This document shows, one piece after another, positions 10,617 through 22,811 of a DNA stretch of 22,811 nt. Below the pieces are notes generated by a model. It saw only the letters and a list, made by a program, of their open reading frames with translations, ran no database searches and had not been told where the DNA came from. This stretch comes from a virus, in IMG/VR virus record IMGVR_UViG_3300037353_000022, positions 1 through 22,811 of that record. The stretch is one strand, 5' to 3'. The position numbers and the translations under genes are program-made. Position 1 is the first letter of the stretch; each line of letters begins with the position of its first letter.

Positions 10617-11072
10617 GTGGCCAACACAGCGACGGTACGCAGTGGCGGCCTAACGATCGACCTGGCCGATTTTCATAGCCTGGCTCGTGGATTCCGCCGT
10701 GTCGAGCCTGAACTCTTTGCGGGCCTGAAGCTGCGCTTGCGTGGCATTGGGCAGCTCGTCGCCGACTCTGCGAAAGAGCACGCCTCCTTCTCCGAGACCA
10801 TTCCGCCCTCCATCAAGGTGCGGATGTCCACGTTGTCGGTCTCCGTCGTGGCGACCAAGGCTCCCCTCTCGGGCCTAGAGGAGATGGGTAAAAAGGGAAA
10901 CAGGGGGTCGGGTGTCGCCTGGCGTCACCCAGTGTTCGGGAACAAGGACGTCTGGGTGACTCAGATCGGCCATCCGTTCCTGCTGCCGGCACTGAAGGAC
11001 AAAGCCGAAGTGATTGAGGCCTTGGTCGACGAAGCAGTTGGCGAGGCCTTCGACGTGGCCCTGGAGGTCTAA
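10617..11072 (+). CDS. HK97 gp10-like / tail completion-type protein
   Basis: Protein of 151 residues. It begins with a strand (ATVRSGGLTIDLADF), a long amphipathic helix (HSLARGFRRVEPELFAGLKLRLRGIGQLVADSAKEHA), then IPPSIKVRMSTLSVSVVATKAPLSGLEEMGKKGNRG and VFGNKDVWVTQIGHPFLLPALKD, ending in a helix. The pattern of helix, beta hairpin with a conserved H-P, and PFL-x-P-A-L is that of HK97 gp10-family neck or tail completion proteins. These are normally encoded before the tube gene, so the place between chaperone and tape measure is unusual. GTG 10617 is preceded by GGGAGG at 10605-10610. Confidence 0.7.
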   Translation: MANTATVRSGGLTIDLADFHSLARGFRRVEPELFAGLKLRLRGIGQLVADSAKEHASFSETIPPSIKVRMSTLSVSVVATKAPLSGLEEMGKKGNRGSGVAWRHPVFGNKDVWVTQIGHPFLLPALKDKAEVIEALVDEAVGEAFDVALEV

Positions 11073-15651: not shown

Positions 15652-16347
15652 ATGGCCGCTCCCTCCTTCACCAACGGCCAGGTCCTCACTGGGACCGAGC
15701 TGGACCAGCTGGCGGACATGGTGACCTATCCAGATGCTGTCGCTGCCGGGGTCAACCCGTGCGTGGCCGGCACCCTCTACCTGATCACCAACGGGTCGTC
15801 GAACTTCACATTCGACCTCCCCTCCCCCACGGCCGGGATCTGCATCGCCTTCAAGAAGGTGGACTCCGGAGCAGGCGGCAACACGATCACCGCCAGTTCG
15901 GGCGTCATCCTTGGGCCAGGTTGCGGATCCGGGGGCGCCTCGTCCATCCCGGTGAGCGCACTCGGCGCCAACGTCGAGCTGATGGCGGACGGCACCAACT
16001 GGCACATCATCGGGGGTGCCCAGGATTCCGGATGGCTGGCCTTCTCCTACTCCAACTCCTGGGTCAGCAATAGTGGACCTGGGGCTGCCGGCACTGTCGC
16101 TGGGTACCGGATAACGGGGAATATCGTGAGGCTGGGGGGGTCTATCAAGACAGGTGCGAGCGGGTCCGCGCCCTGTACCGCGCTCCCAGTTGGGTACCGC
16201 CCTCTAGCTGCCGTGGCCATGACGGTCAACCCCTACGGAGCGGCCGGCAGCGCATCGTTCACCGTCTCCACCGCCGGCGTCACGGCAGCCTTCTACAGCG
16301 CGGGAACGGGCGTGAACCTCGACGGAGCCACGTACACAGTCGATTAG
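15652..16347 (+). CDS. Receptor-binding tail protein with switchable C-terminus
   Basis: Protein of 231 residues; ATG 15652 follows AGGAG at 15642-15646. Residues 1-~25 (FTNGQVLTGTELDQLADM) form the usual attachment start of short tail-tip proteins; the middle has LYLITNGSSNFTFDLPSP, FKKVDSGAGGNTITASSGV and NVELMADGTNWHIIGG. The C-terminal domain starts near GWLAFSYSNSWVS and has the common layout Y-R-I-T-G-N-I-V-R-L-G-G, GYRP and a final LDG-x-x-Y-T-V-D, typical of distal receptor-binding or fibre domains. From about residue 160 a homologous alternative end lies downstream on the other strand. Both share RLGG, IK, GAS, GYRP, TAGV, LDG and TVD. Residues 1-152 are constant if inversion occurs. 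Confidence 0.85.
   Translation: MAAPSFTNGQVLTGTELDQLADMVTYPDAVAAGVNPCVAGTLYLITNGSSNFTFDLPSPTAGICIAFKKVDSGAGGNTITASSGVILGPGCGSGGASSIPVSALGANVELMADGTNWHIIGGAQDSGWLAFSYSNSWVSNSGPGAAGTVAGYRITGNIVRLGGSIKTGASGSAPCTALPVGYRPLAAVAMTVNPYGAAGSASFTVSTAGVTAAFYSAGTGVNLDGATYTVD
16107..16136 (+). repeat. Left inverted repeat of the tail-protein switch
   Basis: A 30-base element starting CCGGATAACGGG and ending CTGGG, matching the reverse complement of 16561-16590 at 28 of 30 positions. Differences are at positions 13 and 25, both third codon positions (GGG/GGA and AGG/AGA). It lies in the coding sequence and specifies R-I-T-G-N-I-V-R-L-G. Confidence 0.9.
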
Positions 16348-16571
16348 TCGACCGTGAAGGTCATCCCATCGAGCACCACCACTGACCAGCCAGAGGCGGC
16401 GATCGCGTTTGCCACCCCGGCTGTGGTGATGGAGACTTGGGCTACATTCGGCGCGTTGCTCACGTCTGACGCGCTGGTGAGATAGACCTGCGCCGCCGGG
16501 CGGTACCCGGCGGCCAGCGTGAAGGGGGATGTGTTGCTCGCGCCGCTCTTGATGTTGCCGCCCAGTCTCAC
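16344..16571 (-). CDS. Silent alternative C-terminal module of the tail protein (partial gene)
   Basis: The reverse frame encodes 75 residues from a GTG inside the right repeat (MRLGGNIKSGASNTSPFTLA, then GYRPAAQVYLTSAS, QVSITTAGVANAIAASG, VVVLDGMTFTVD). It is a clear homologue of the end of the forward tail protein but different in its middle, with TSASDVSNAPNVAQ in place of TVNPYGAAGSAS. There is no ribosome site or N-terminal domain, so it is expected to be silent until inverted onto the 5' part of the upstream gene. The open frame, the conserved landmarks and a proper stop argue against decay. A shorter reading as an independent small gene is unlikely. Confidence 0.8.
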   Translation of the reverse strand: MRLGGNIKSGASNTSPFTLAAGYRPAAQVYLTSASDVSNAPNVAQVSITTAGVANAIAASGWSVVVLDGMTFTVD

Positions 16572-16590
16572 GATATTTCCCGTTATCCGG
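16561..16590 (-). repeat. Right inverted repeat of the tail-protein switch
   Basis: Reverse complement of the left repeat with 28 of 30 identities. Read on the reverse strand it gives R-I-T-G-N-I-V-R-L-G in frame with the silent module. Outside the repeats the two flanks differ at once (GGGTA against TAGCT before CCGG), so the homology has a sharp outer edge, while on the inner side similarity fades gradually through the coding sequence. Confidence 0.9.
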
Positions 16591-16612
16591 AGCTATGCAC
16601 TTTGGAGATTTC

Positions 16613-17020
16613 ATGCTTCTAACGACGGTCGCGCCGTCGCTAGGCTCATCTCCTAGCTACGTTTCACTGATCTTTTACGCGCTGGCCATTCTCGGCGTCC
16701 TGGGCGGCGCCGTTTCGTACTTCCGAGGGAGTCTCGGCCAAGCGACGATCGCGCAGCTGGAGACCAACAACAAGGTCCTCAAGCAGACAGTCGATCTCCA
16801 GACAGAGCAGATCACCGAGCTAAAGGCCCAGAACCAAGAGCAGGCCGGCCAGCTCACCGTCCTCCGCGAGCAGGTAACCCAGAAGGCTGCGGTCGCGGAA
16901 CTGGCCAAGCTGTCGAGTAGTCATCACAGCGAGTTGATGGAAGCCATTGGGGCACTAACAAAGGCTCTCTCAAACAACATCCAGAAGCCTGCTTCGAGGG
17001 CTCGACGTGCCGGATCTTAA
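16613..17020 (+). CDS. Membrane-anchored coiled-coil protein
   Basis: Protein of 135 residues. One transmembrane helix (YVSLIFYALAILGVLGGAVSYF, about residues 16-37) is followed by a long coiled coil (ATIAQLETNNKVLKQTVDLQTEQITELKAQNQEQAGQLTVLREQVTQ) and a basic end (KPASRARRAGS). ATG 16613 is preceded by GGAG at 16604-16607 with spacing 5, so it is preferred to ATG 16595, which lies 5 bases from the switch repeat. Such proteins are common downstream of tail genes in phages of Gram-positive bacteria; role in lysis or as an envelope protein is not known. The end overlaps the next gene by 14 bases. Confidence 0.7.
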   Translation: MLLTTVAPSLGSSPSYVSLIFYALAILGVLGGAVSYFRGSLGQATIAQLETNNKVLKQTVDLQTEQITELKAQNQEQAGQLTVLREQVTQKAAVAELAKLSSSHHSELMEAIGALTKALSNNIQKPASRARRAGS

Positions 17021-17447
17021 GGGTGCCGTCAGGCATGATCGCCTAACTTTCCGGATCGCCGCTGTCGCCTTCGCTTGCTCGCTCCTGGCCATAGGCTTGT
17101 TGTTCGGTCAGTCAATTGCTGTGTCCGATTATGGCGTGGAGTTGGCGCGCGCCAACCACCAACTGATCGAGCTCCACAAGGCCGAGATACTCCGGGACGG
17201 CGAGACCATCCAGGATCTCCAGCATCGGGTTCTAGCGATTGATGCCGTGCTGGATCGCTACTGCAAGGCGCTTGAAGTGCCGTGCCCGCCTCCGCTGACC
17301 GTGCCTAGGGCATCGGGCAGTAACTCCACAGCGACGCCCGCGCCCAGTGAGAGCCGCGCCAGTCCTTCGGGTGAGCCAACGGCCACGCCGAGCCCCAAGC
17401 CGCTGCCGACGCCAGTCCTCTGTATCGGGAGTTTCTGCATTGGATGA
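17007..17447 (+). CDS. Membrane-anchored protein with Pro/Ser-rich tail
   Basis: Protein of 146 residues. A basic start (MPDLKGAVRHDRLTFR) leads into one transmembrane helix (IAAVAFACSLLAIGLLFG, about residues 17-34), then a coiled-coil stretch (ELARANHQLIELHKAEILRDGETIQDLQHRVLAIDAVLDRYCKAL), then a low-complexity Pro/Ser/Thr linker (TPAPSESRASPSGEPTATPS) and a Cys-containing end (VLCIGSFCIG). The topology suggests an extracytoplasmic or wall-spanning stalk. GTG 17007 has GAGGG at 16996-17000, spacing 6. It forms a pair with the preceding membrane coiled-coil protein; joint action at the envelope is inference. Confidence 0.7.
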   Translation: MPDLKGAVRHDRLTFRIAAVAFACSLLAIGLLFGQSIAVSDYGVELARANHQLIELHKAEILRDGETIQDLQHRVLAIDAVLDRYCKALEVPCPPPLTVPRASGSNSTATPAPSESRASPSGEPTATPSPKPLPTPVLCIGSFCIG

Positions 17448-18474
17448 CCTGGTCCTCGAGCGCATCACGGCTCCCAAGCCGGTCGGCGCGTACCTGCACT
17501 CGCTCCCCTGGCCTGACGGACTTGCGCCCAGACCGTCGACCGTGACCTACCCCGCGAACGCATCGCTGCCCAAGGCCGAGGTGCTCATCGTCACCTACAC
17601 CACGGCCGAGAGCCACGCTCTCGCGGACACCCTGACGCCCGGCCACCAGGCCGAGGACTGGAACCGGTACACCAAGAACTGGGCGCAGTTCGAGAAGCAC
17701 CTGACCGAGCGCTCGCCGGCCAAGTTCTCGCGCTGCCTAGCCTCCTACTGGGTGACGCAGATCGACCAAACGGTCGTCATTTGCGCCAAGTCAGACCTGC
17801 ACCTCAGCACCGACGATGCAACCCTGCCCATCCGAGCCCTCTTCAAGCAGATGATCGAGGACTGCCAGCCGAGGCTGGTCATCACCACCGGTACCGCCGG
17901 CGGGATCGGTTCCTCGGAGTCGCTGGGCGACGTGCTGGTGACCAACACGTCCCACTTCGACTGCCAGAAGACCTTTGGGAAAGAGCCCTTCGCTCACTCG
18001 CAGTACGTCTGCGCTGCCAGCGCGCAACTGGCGGTGGCCGAGAACTATGCGGACATCGGCTCGCTGCTGGACGCGAACGCCGCCGAGCTTGACCCGGTGG
18101 CTACGCACGAGCCCCGGGTCATCGGGCTTGACGCCCTCCAGAAAGGTGAGCACGTCCTCACCACCGACTTCTTTGCATTCGACGACTCGGCCAACAGCTA
18201 CGGGCTGCGGACCTACGACCCGGATGCAGGCATGGTCGAGATGGATGACGCGGTCCTGGGCCTGGTCTGCCAGGAGGACCTGACCAACCCCCCGCCGTGG
18301 CTCTCGATTCGCAACGCCTCGGATCCCCAGATGGTCAACGAGCCGGATCAATCGCTTGAGCAGCTGGCCAAGCAGGCCAGCGACATCTATCTCAAGTACG
18401 GCTACTGGACGACGGTCGGATCGGCGATCTGCTGCTGGGCAGCTGTCGTGACCTTCTCCGGTGTCCAGCCGTGA
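17440..18474 (+). CDS. Nucleoside phosphorylase-superfamily (PNP/MTAN-like) protein
   Basis: Protein of 344 residues from TTG 17440, preceded by GGGAG at 17427-17431. The fold signatures are AEVLIVTYTTAESHAL at the start of the Rossmann-like core, PRLVITTGTAGGIGSSESLGDVLVTN (glycine loop about 150-157), VEMDDAVLGLVC (M268-D269, in place of the usual M-E), and LSIRNASDPQ with a candidate catalytic Asp at 295, then a closing helix (GSAICCWAAVVTF). Family members cleave purine nucleosides or nucleotides; some are effectors of antiphage systems that destroy ATP or other nucleotides. Here it sits among late membrane and lysis genes and is not a usual virion gene. Substrate and role are unknown; a phage-benefit accessory gene is the likeliest reading. 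Confidence 0.75.
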   Translation: MDDLVLERITAPKPVGAYLHSLPWPDGLAPRPSTVTYPANASLPKAEVLIVTYTTAESHALADTLTPGHQAEDWNRYTKNWAQFEKHLTERSPAKFSRCLASYWVTQIDQTVVICAKSDLHLSTDDATLPIRALFKQMIEDCQPRLVITTGTAGGIGSSESLGDVLVTNTSHFDCQKTFGKEPFAHSQYVCAASAQLAVAENYADIGSLLDANAAELDPVATHEPRVIGLDALQKGEHVLTTDFFAFDDSANSYGLRTYDPDAGMVEMDDAVLGLVCQEDLTNPPPWLSIRNASDPQMVNEPDQSLEQLAKQASDIYLKYGYWTTVGSAICCWAAVVTFSGVQP

Positions 18475-21221: not shown

Positions 21222-21518
21222 TCAGTCTTCGGACTGGGCGGCGGGGGCCTCTTCTGCGTTCTCGGGGCCGAGAGGCCGTTCCACCCATCCAAATCCGCAG
21301 CGCTTGCAGGTGCGGTGCAGCCTGTCGGTGATCCAGCTGGTCGCGGCCTTCTTCTTCCCGCACTTCGGGCACGGCCGCATCGGATCGTAGGTTGGAATCG
21401 GCGCCAGCACATCGGGGAAGTTCTCTCGGATCTGCTCTTCGACCTTCTCGCGCAGTCGGGGGCAAACTTTCTTGTCGCGGAGCGTGGGGAGGGTGTAACA
21501 TCCCCCTGTGCTTACCAC
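21222..21518 (-). CDS. Zinc-ribbon protein
   Basis: Protein of 98 residues on the reverse strand, the only clear reverse gene besides the silent tail module. It has CPKCGKKKA and HRTCKRCGFGW, two C-x-x-C knuckles spaced about 20 residues apart, that form a zinc ribbon as in transcription-related or DNA-binding proteins. Upstream is a charged helix (LREKVEEQIRENFPDVLAPI); the end is an acidic/alanine tail (ENAEEAPAAQSED). The GTG at 21516-21518 has no obvious ribosome site and overlaps the first codons of the divergent HTH gene, so a later start is possible. A regulatory or nucleic-acid role is inferred from the ribbon. Confidence 0.65.
   Translation of the reverse strand: MVSTGGCYTLPTLRDKKVCPRLREKVEEQIRENFPDVLAPIPTYDPMRPCPKCGKKKAATSWITDRLHRTCKRCGFGWVERPLGPENAEEAPAAQSED
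21472..21499 (+). promoter_or_regulatory. Possible promoter for a leaderless HTH gene
   Basis: TTGTCG (21472-21477) and TGTAAC (21494-21499) stand 16 bases apart and resemble sigma-70-type -35 and -10 elements. The expected transcript start falls at or just before the GTG at 21508, which lacks a ribosome site at normal spacing. That suits a leaderless mRNA, frequent in actinobacteria. A short dyad GGGGA...TCCCC (21487-21505) overlaps the -10. Confidence 0.35.
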
Positions 21519-21699
21519 CCGACAGGTCGCGATGCTTCTGAAACTGAATAGAGACTACGTGATCGAGCTGTGCCGCACCGGCAAGATCAGGGCGCTTCAG
21601 ATCGAAGGGCGCTGGTTCGTCAAGGACGAGGACTTGCACATCTTCCAGCAGAAGAGACTTGACAAACCCCGATACGTCGGGATAGAGTCGGCTTCATGA
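21508..21699 (+). CDS. Excisionase / MerR-type helix-turn-helix protein
   Basis: Protein of 63 residues: LTTRQVAMLLKLNRDYVIEL forms the helix-turn-helix, CRTGKIRALQIEGRWFVKDEDL is the wing, with the typical G-R-W-x-V and a final D-L of HTH_17 or excisionase-family proteins. Members bind DNA as recombination directionality factors or small repressors. The window contains no integrase, so either role is open. It is transcribed divergently from the zinc-ribbon gene, whose GTG overlaps its first codons. A promoter with an internal dyad lies in its 3' end, and self-regulation is possible. Confidence 0.75.
   Translation: MLTTRQVAMLLKLNRDYVIELCRTGKIRALQIEGRWFVKDEDLHIFQQKRLDKPRYVGIESAS
21659..21688 (+). 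promoter_or_regulatory. Promoter with internal dyad inside the HTH gene end
   Basis: TTGACA (21659-21664, perfect -35) and TAGAGT (21683-21688, fits the actinobacterial TAnnnT -10) are 18 bases apart. The spacer contains CCCGA-TACG-TCGGG (21668-21681), a perfect 5-base dyad well placed for a repressor. The expected transcript start is near 21695-21696, next to an ATG that overlaps the HTH stop and opens a 36-residue frame of doubtful reality (21696-21806). Confidence 0.6.
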
Positions 21700-22114: not shown

Positions 22115-22811
22115 TGAAGACCATGACCGGCTGGCACTTTCTGGCCGACCCGGCACAACTCCGGGACGGAACGCCGACTCCCGCCGTGGGGGTGAAGCTC
22201 AAGCTGGACGGCAAGCCCGTTCTCTGCCAGCACGGGTTTCACGCCAGCGTGAAACCGATCGACGCCCTGGGCTACGCTCCGGGTGCGTACCTCTGTCGCG
22301 TTCGTCTGTCCGGGACCGTGGTTGAGGATGGCAGCAAGGCCGTGGCCTCTGAGCGCACCATCCTGGCCGGACCGGTCGATGTGTCGGTCGAGCTGCGGAT
22401 CTTCGCTGCTCAGCAAGCGCTCCGTGCAGCGGACGAGGCAGAGAAGGTGCTGCCCAACTTTGAGAAGGTCTTTCCCGAGGACAAACGTGCCCGGGAGGCC
22501 ATCGAACAGGCTCGAAAGACCGCTCGGGCGGTGATCGCGAGCCGAGGGCCACAGCCCGAGGCTTGGTCGGCTGCTAGGTCGGCTGAGTCGGCTGCTTGGT
22601 CGGCTGCTAGGTCGGCTGAGTCGGCTGCTTGGTCGGCTGCTAGGTCGGCTGAGTCGGCTGCTAGGTCGGCTGAGTCGGCTGCTTGGTCGGCTGCTGGGTC
22701 GGCTGCTGGGTCGGCTGCTGAGTCGGCTGGGTCGGCTGCTGGGTCGGCTGCTGAGTCGGCTTGGTCGGCTAGGTCGGCTGCTGGGTCGGCTGCTAGGTCG
22801 GCTTGGTCGGC
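22114..22811 (+). CDS. A-X-S-A repeat protein, truncated by the window end
   Basis: Open frame from GTG 22114 (ATG 22123 is an alternative) to the end of the window, 232 codons and still open. Residues 4-~95 form a globular domain: MTGWHFLADPAQLRDGTPTP, CQHGFHASVKPIDALGYAPG, AYLCRVRLSGTVVEDG, ERTILAG. Residues ~100-145 are helical and charged (QQALRAADEAEKVLPNFEKV). From ~147 the chain becomes Ala/Ser repeats of the form A-X-S-A with X = W, R, E or G. Similar proteins with an HGFHAS-like motif and these repeats are known from phages and prophages, without a known function. The frame is the only one of the three forward frames free of stops across the repeat. Confidence 0.72.
   Translation, partial: MKTMTGWHFLADPAQLRDGTPTPAVGVKLKLDGKPVLCQHGFHASVKPIDALGYAPGAYLCRVRLSGTVVEDGSKAVASERTILAGPVDVSVELRIFAAQQALRAADEAEKVLPNFEKVFPEDKRAREAIEQARKTARAVIASRGPQPEAWSAARSAESAAWSAARSAESAAWSAARSAESAARSAESAAWSAAGSAAGSAAESAGSAAGSAAESAWSARSAAGSAARSAWS
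22561..22811 (+). repeat. Tandem repeat array of 12- and 9-base units
   Basis: Units GCTNGGTCGGCT or GCTGAGTCGGCT (12 bases) and shortened forms lacking one GCT (9 bases) follow one another without a break to the window end. The variable codon is TGG, AGG, GAG or GGG, while TCGGCT is constant. All units are multiples of three, so gain or loss of units keeps the frame. Confidence 0.9.

Follow-up and report, generated by a model that had tools for sequence, protein, structure and literature searches.

Can a phage keep two alternative ends for a single tail protein and exchange them by turning round a few hundred base pairs of DNA? The question is raised by positions 16107-16590 of the stretch analysed here (the window), an entire 22.8-kb IMG/VR fragment (22,811 nucleotides) whose + strand carries the terminase, head, tape measure and tail genes of a tailed phage. 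We interpret this segment, with a probability of roughly 0.6, as a compact two-state invertible cassette that sets the tip of a small tail protein: by inversion between 30-bp coding arms, one constant part of 152 residues would be followed by one or the other of two homologous modules of ~80 residues. The terminase is nearest, among reference phages, to those of Arthrobacter phages (about 32%), and an actinobacterial host is therefore likely.

The tail protein gene and its surroundings

The protein concerned is encoded by a 231-aa ORF (15652-16347) that adjoins, downstream, the 808-aa tail protein of the phage. The features referred to below are as follows.

15652..16106, + strand: constant half of the tail protein gene (ORF; ATG at 15652, ribosome site taggag just upstream)
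16107..16136, + strand: left arm of the inverted repeat, coding RITGNIVRL in frame (repeat search)
16108..16347, + strand: module 1, the C-terminus in use, 79 residues, ending in TAG (ORF)
16344..16589, - strand: module 2, the silent alternative C-terminus, 81 residues, ending in TAA (tblastn; match to the tip of contig L006, described below)
16561..16590, - strand: right arm of the inverted repeat (repeat search)
16593..16595, - strand: in-frame TAG just upstream of module 2 (read from the sequence; no longer reverse ORF is listed)
16613..17020, + strand: next gene, with a weak Rz-spanin-like match (ribosome site GGAG at 16604-16607)

The last ~100 residues of the ORF form a module that also occurs in tail proteins of Streptomyces, Arthrobacter and Geobacillus phages, and alignment with L006 and other phage tail proteins places the first 28 residues of this C-terminal domain, from 16024, in the constant half. 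Position and domain family suggest a receptor-binding role, in which the protein would bind the host; structure predictions reached a pLDDT of only about 30 and were unusable. Relatives of the upstream 808-aa protein are 30% identical, and the one such locus read downstream (L040) has no module of this kind.

Three other features of the window are recorded here. Past the tail genes, a 344-aa protein (17440-18474) carries a phosphorylase-superfamily domain (PNP_UDP_1, Pfam E 3e-6), unusual for a phage. A 63-aa HTH_17 protein (21508-21699) also matches excisionase families, which hints at a temperate phage whose integrase may sit in the missing part of the genome. The contig ends on a tandem repeat at 22528-22811, long and imperfect (9/12 bp; GGTCGGCTGCT...), whose Ala/Ser-rich product (WSAARSAES) may vary in repeat number without loss of frame.

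Two homologous modules between inverted coding arms

An initial sequence-only reading had described 30-base inverted repeats with 28 identities, homologous C-terminal modules lying stop to stop, and repeats coding the same residues in frame with synonymous mismatches, and each of these observations held on reanalysis. The arms, 16107-16136 (+) and 16561-16590 (-), are identical at 28 of 30 positions, differ at bases 13 and 25, and constitute the longest inverted repeat in the window; a repeat search allowing <=3 mismatches returned just these two copies in the window, versus none in 100 shuffles. Inwards of the arms similarity declines gradually (45/55), while outwards it ends abruptly. Codons start at base 2 in both arms (CGG ATA ACG GGR AAT ATC GTG AGR CTG, coding RITGNIVRL), and because this phase is shared and the mismatches fall in GGR and AGR, both are synonymous. 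The arms have the rare codons ATA, AAT and AGR in common, and their DNA identity exceeds that expected from the shared peptide when the test is conditional on either arm (P 2e-4 to 9e-4 over nine codons; P 0.006 over eleven), whereas an unconditional codon-usage simulation gives P 0.07, so that significance is confined to the test conditional on the rare codons.

The two modules are homologous (tblastn, 51% over 83 aa, E 4e-16, for the reverse-strand stretch 16592-16344) and run into each other so closely that their stops overlap (TAG at 16345-16347 on the + strand, TAA at 16346-16344 on the - strand); the hairpin at this junction is not notable (z -1.6). Module 2 begins exactly at the arm, has no start of its own and, owing to the in-frame TAG just before the right arm, is no independent long ORF. 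The first 28 residues of the domain are missing from it and occur once, in the constant half; all 81 codons of the module are open, with neither frameshift nor stop. Because the arms share their codon phase, inversion would yield a protein of 233 aa (152 + 81 codons), and as the GGAG ribosome site of the next gene sits just outside the right arm, that gene would keep its site intact. To judge from the sequence, the arms, their phase, the silent truncated module and the position of the next ribosome site fit the layout of a switch, and would be unexpected for a random inverted insertion.

Module 2 as the working tip of an unrelated phage

A search of IMG/VR for the stop-to-stop motif, and searches with the whole protein and with module alignments, recovered only two other contigs with the repeat pattern: a near-identical sister contig and L006 (IMGVR_UViG_3300037242_000012), which comes from the same metagenome as the sister contig. 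None was confirmed in genome contigs, a plasmid search gave no match, and a two-motif scan for other tail-to-tail modules produced 24 matches, among which the sister contig alone is real. Where Streptomyces, Arthrobacter and Geobacillus reference phages carry a related module, no inverted partner accompanies it.

The sister contig differs from the window by one mismatch in 10 kb, has the segment in the same orientation and adds 10.2 kb upstream, bringing the phage to ~33 kb of a still incomplete genome; neither contig breaks at the arms. In the added upstream region, a 474-aa protein (L009 2863-4287) contains DUF6745 (Pfam E 4e-59), a domain without known function.

L006, by contrast in gene content, has a terminase and tape measure that match families other than those of the window, and blastp finds only one tail-protein stretch and the tip in common; on these comparisons it is a different phage. 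Its 199-aa ORF ends in module 2, which serves there as the expressed C-terminus (97.4% nucleotide identity over 274 bp; 96% of amino acids, with three residues differing), and identity is 79% in the 80 bp of common constant half. Past the L006 stop there remain 27 bp, 24 of them matching, whose reverse reading is LGVATYTVD, the last residues of a partner resembling module 1. The L006 lineage or its donor therefore once had two tail-to-tail modules of which module 2 was the one in use, and, with a related constant half as reference, both orientations of the module pair are thus known. Within the window phage it is never seen in both, the two near-identical contigs sharing one orientation, and L006 is itself fixed, the rest of its inverted partner being missing. 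An open stretch behind the L006 module (10785-10855, ATVTTKIDGANQDCYFDIQQT*) looks like a gene end cut by the arrival of the tip or by the loss of the partner.

These comparisons bear on two earlier claims, that the C-terminus is an invertible switch and that the phage alternates between proteins of 231 and 233 residues. The predicted lengths hold, from the ORF and from the codon count, as does the two-state anatomy, to which L006 adds an expressed module 2 with a partner remnant; present-day alternation does not follow, with a single orientation in the near-identical contigs. The two arrangements are most simply related through inversion at the arms, with horizontal exchange taking part too. 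We infer that they are connected by inversion, or by recombination of the arms that amounts to inversion, at least over evolutionary time; the inversion may have happened in the window phage or only in an ancestor of the module pair, and active, frequent flipping in this population is hypothetical. The L006 arm carries the reverse-arm alleles at both mismatch positions, which would confine any exchange to 16102-16118, in the first 12 bp of the arm and not at its centre, and the L006 tip may stem from horizontal exchange instead of inversion in its own lineage.

What could drive recombination at the arms

The absence of a nearby invertase, remarked on in the sequence-only reading, extends to the whole window: neither a serine recombinase (PF00239) nor a tyrosine recombinase (PF00589, PF13102) is encoded in the window, the sister contig or L006, the genome being incomplete, and attempts to extend the contig at either end in search of one added nothing. 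The suggestion that the enzyme and its core site might be of a new type gains no backing, as no recombinase was identified in the incomplete genome and the arms lack the dyad symmetry of serine and tyrosine core sites, with none above that of random windows. Given that the genome is incomplete, a recombinase of the phage's own may lie in the missing part. Action in trans is known from PinQ, which inverts a segment of another prophage (PMC12529663), and a trans-acting enzyme has been proposed for the second inversion locus of bifidophages (PMC6109161). The flipping enzyme would be either a product of the still missing genome part or one supplied in trans by the host or another phage. Several findings count against the cassette reading: the missing recombinase, the lack of an arm dyad, the mismatch at base 13, the off-centre exchange implied by the L006 alleles, the single orientation in both near-identical contigs with no break at the arms, the loss of the L006 partner, and the chance that L006 received its tip by horizontal exchange.

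Alternative explanations

The strongest competitor, possible though on the unlikely side, is a silent reserve without a dedicated switch, in which module 2 came in by horizontal transfer, lying inverted from the start, and is moved on rare occasions by homologous recombination, of phage or host origin, either inside the genome or with phages that co-infect the cell. Module 2 has clearly moved between unrelated phages, no site-specific recombinase was found, and the sister contig encodes a phrog_3290 single-strand annealing protein (L009:215-1231) with homologues in mycobacteriophages; the 79% match over 80 bp upstream in L006 and the window is the type of patch used in phage mosaicism (PMC3945230). 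However, the longest perfect stretch common to the arms is 12 bp, below the published minima of 23-27 bp for Red beta and 31-34 bp for RecA (an 11-bp case was below detection; PMC3945230), which counts against annealing or homologous recombination at the arms, and a reserve alone leaves the exact in-phase, stop-to-stop, truncated layout unexplained.

An elaboration of the cassette reading that we regard as speculative and rather unlikely would have the segment both invertible within the phage and traded between unrelated phages sharing a host, the tip of the other phage being kept as the 'off' module. The coding arm would then be the common joint for both processes, driven by a trans-acting or undescribed recombinase on an asymmetric coding site.

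It is improbable that the segment is a relic, left by an inverted insertion or by a switch that has stopped working in the window phage: the single orientation, the two arm mismatches and the lost L006 partner would suit decay, but module 2 is open over 81 codons and just three residues away from the expressed L006 copy. Metagenomic contigs are the sole source of the locus, but a chimeric assembly is very improbable, since two contig records (which may not be independent) have the same structure with one mismatch in 10 kb, the arms are located at gene borders, and the L006 copy is 2.6% different and therefore not the same DNA misplaced.

Comparison with known systems

Invertible tail-fibre segments include the G segment of Mu (Gin), the C segment of P1 (Cin) and the P segment of e14 (PinE/PinQ), in which, as proposed for the window, tail-fibre C-termini are swapped by inversion between repeats that lie in genes. 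These segments, of 1.8-4.2 kb in the case of P and C (PMC12529663), are served by a serine invertase, and Mu, P1 and e14 have a fibre-assembly gene as well; neither gene was found in the window, where no PF00239 protein lies beside the segment, the arms form no dyad, and the centre is not identical (base 13).

Second closest among published systems is the Rin shufflon, known from Bifidobacterium and Eggerthella prophages (PMC6109161, PMC8778435), which likewise combines a constant N-terminal part with alternative C-termini of ~80-100 residues in a receptor-binding protein by intragenic inversion. It differs in having several variable segments, sites of 8-11 bp and an adjacent tyrosine recombinase, whereas the window has two segments, 30-bp arms in two copies and no tyrosine recombinase found.

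Closest in layout is the second bifidophage inversion locus, that of the tRNA-Met prophages 689b-1 and Bb423phi2 (PMC6109161), which comprises ~500 bp with the 3' end of a virion-region gene and a small opposite gene, has no adjoining recombinase and belongs to actinobacterial phages. The window shares this plan, with a ~500-bp segment, inverted repeats, a gene 3' end and an opposite coding segment, and the compactness and absent invertase that had been thought unusual are therefore not new. The repeat is 8 bp there and 30 bp here, and the segments are quite dissimilar there and homologous in the window. Both orientations were observed there by comparing two related phages (PMC6109161); here the sister contig matches the window, and it is the otherwise unrelated L006, with only the tip shared, that has the other module in use and a partner remnant. 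Horizontal exchange of tail-fibre parts between unrelated phages, as cited in PMC3945230, likewise leaves nearly identical tips in otherwise unrelated phages; the difference here is that one of the two phages carries the exchanged tip inverted and silent.

What sets the window apart, partly on the basis of absences in incomplete genomes and of the open-access literature, is the long coding arm, the homology of the modules, and a silent module nearly identical to the working tip of an unrelated phage. Two known routes to a changed host range, inversion of DNA and horizontal exchange of modules, thereby meet at one site: what one phage keeps as a spare tip, an unrelated one uses as its working tip. 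Should flipping prove active, the segment would join the few switches of this kind that the open-access literature reports in actinobacterial-type phages, and would rank among the smallest. Two questions can be tested on the locus: whether phages that share a host are the source of alternative tips, and whether a phage lacking an invertase of its own can manage with short coding repeats.
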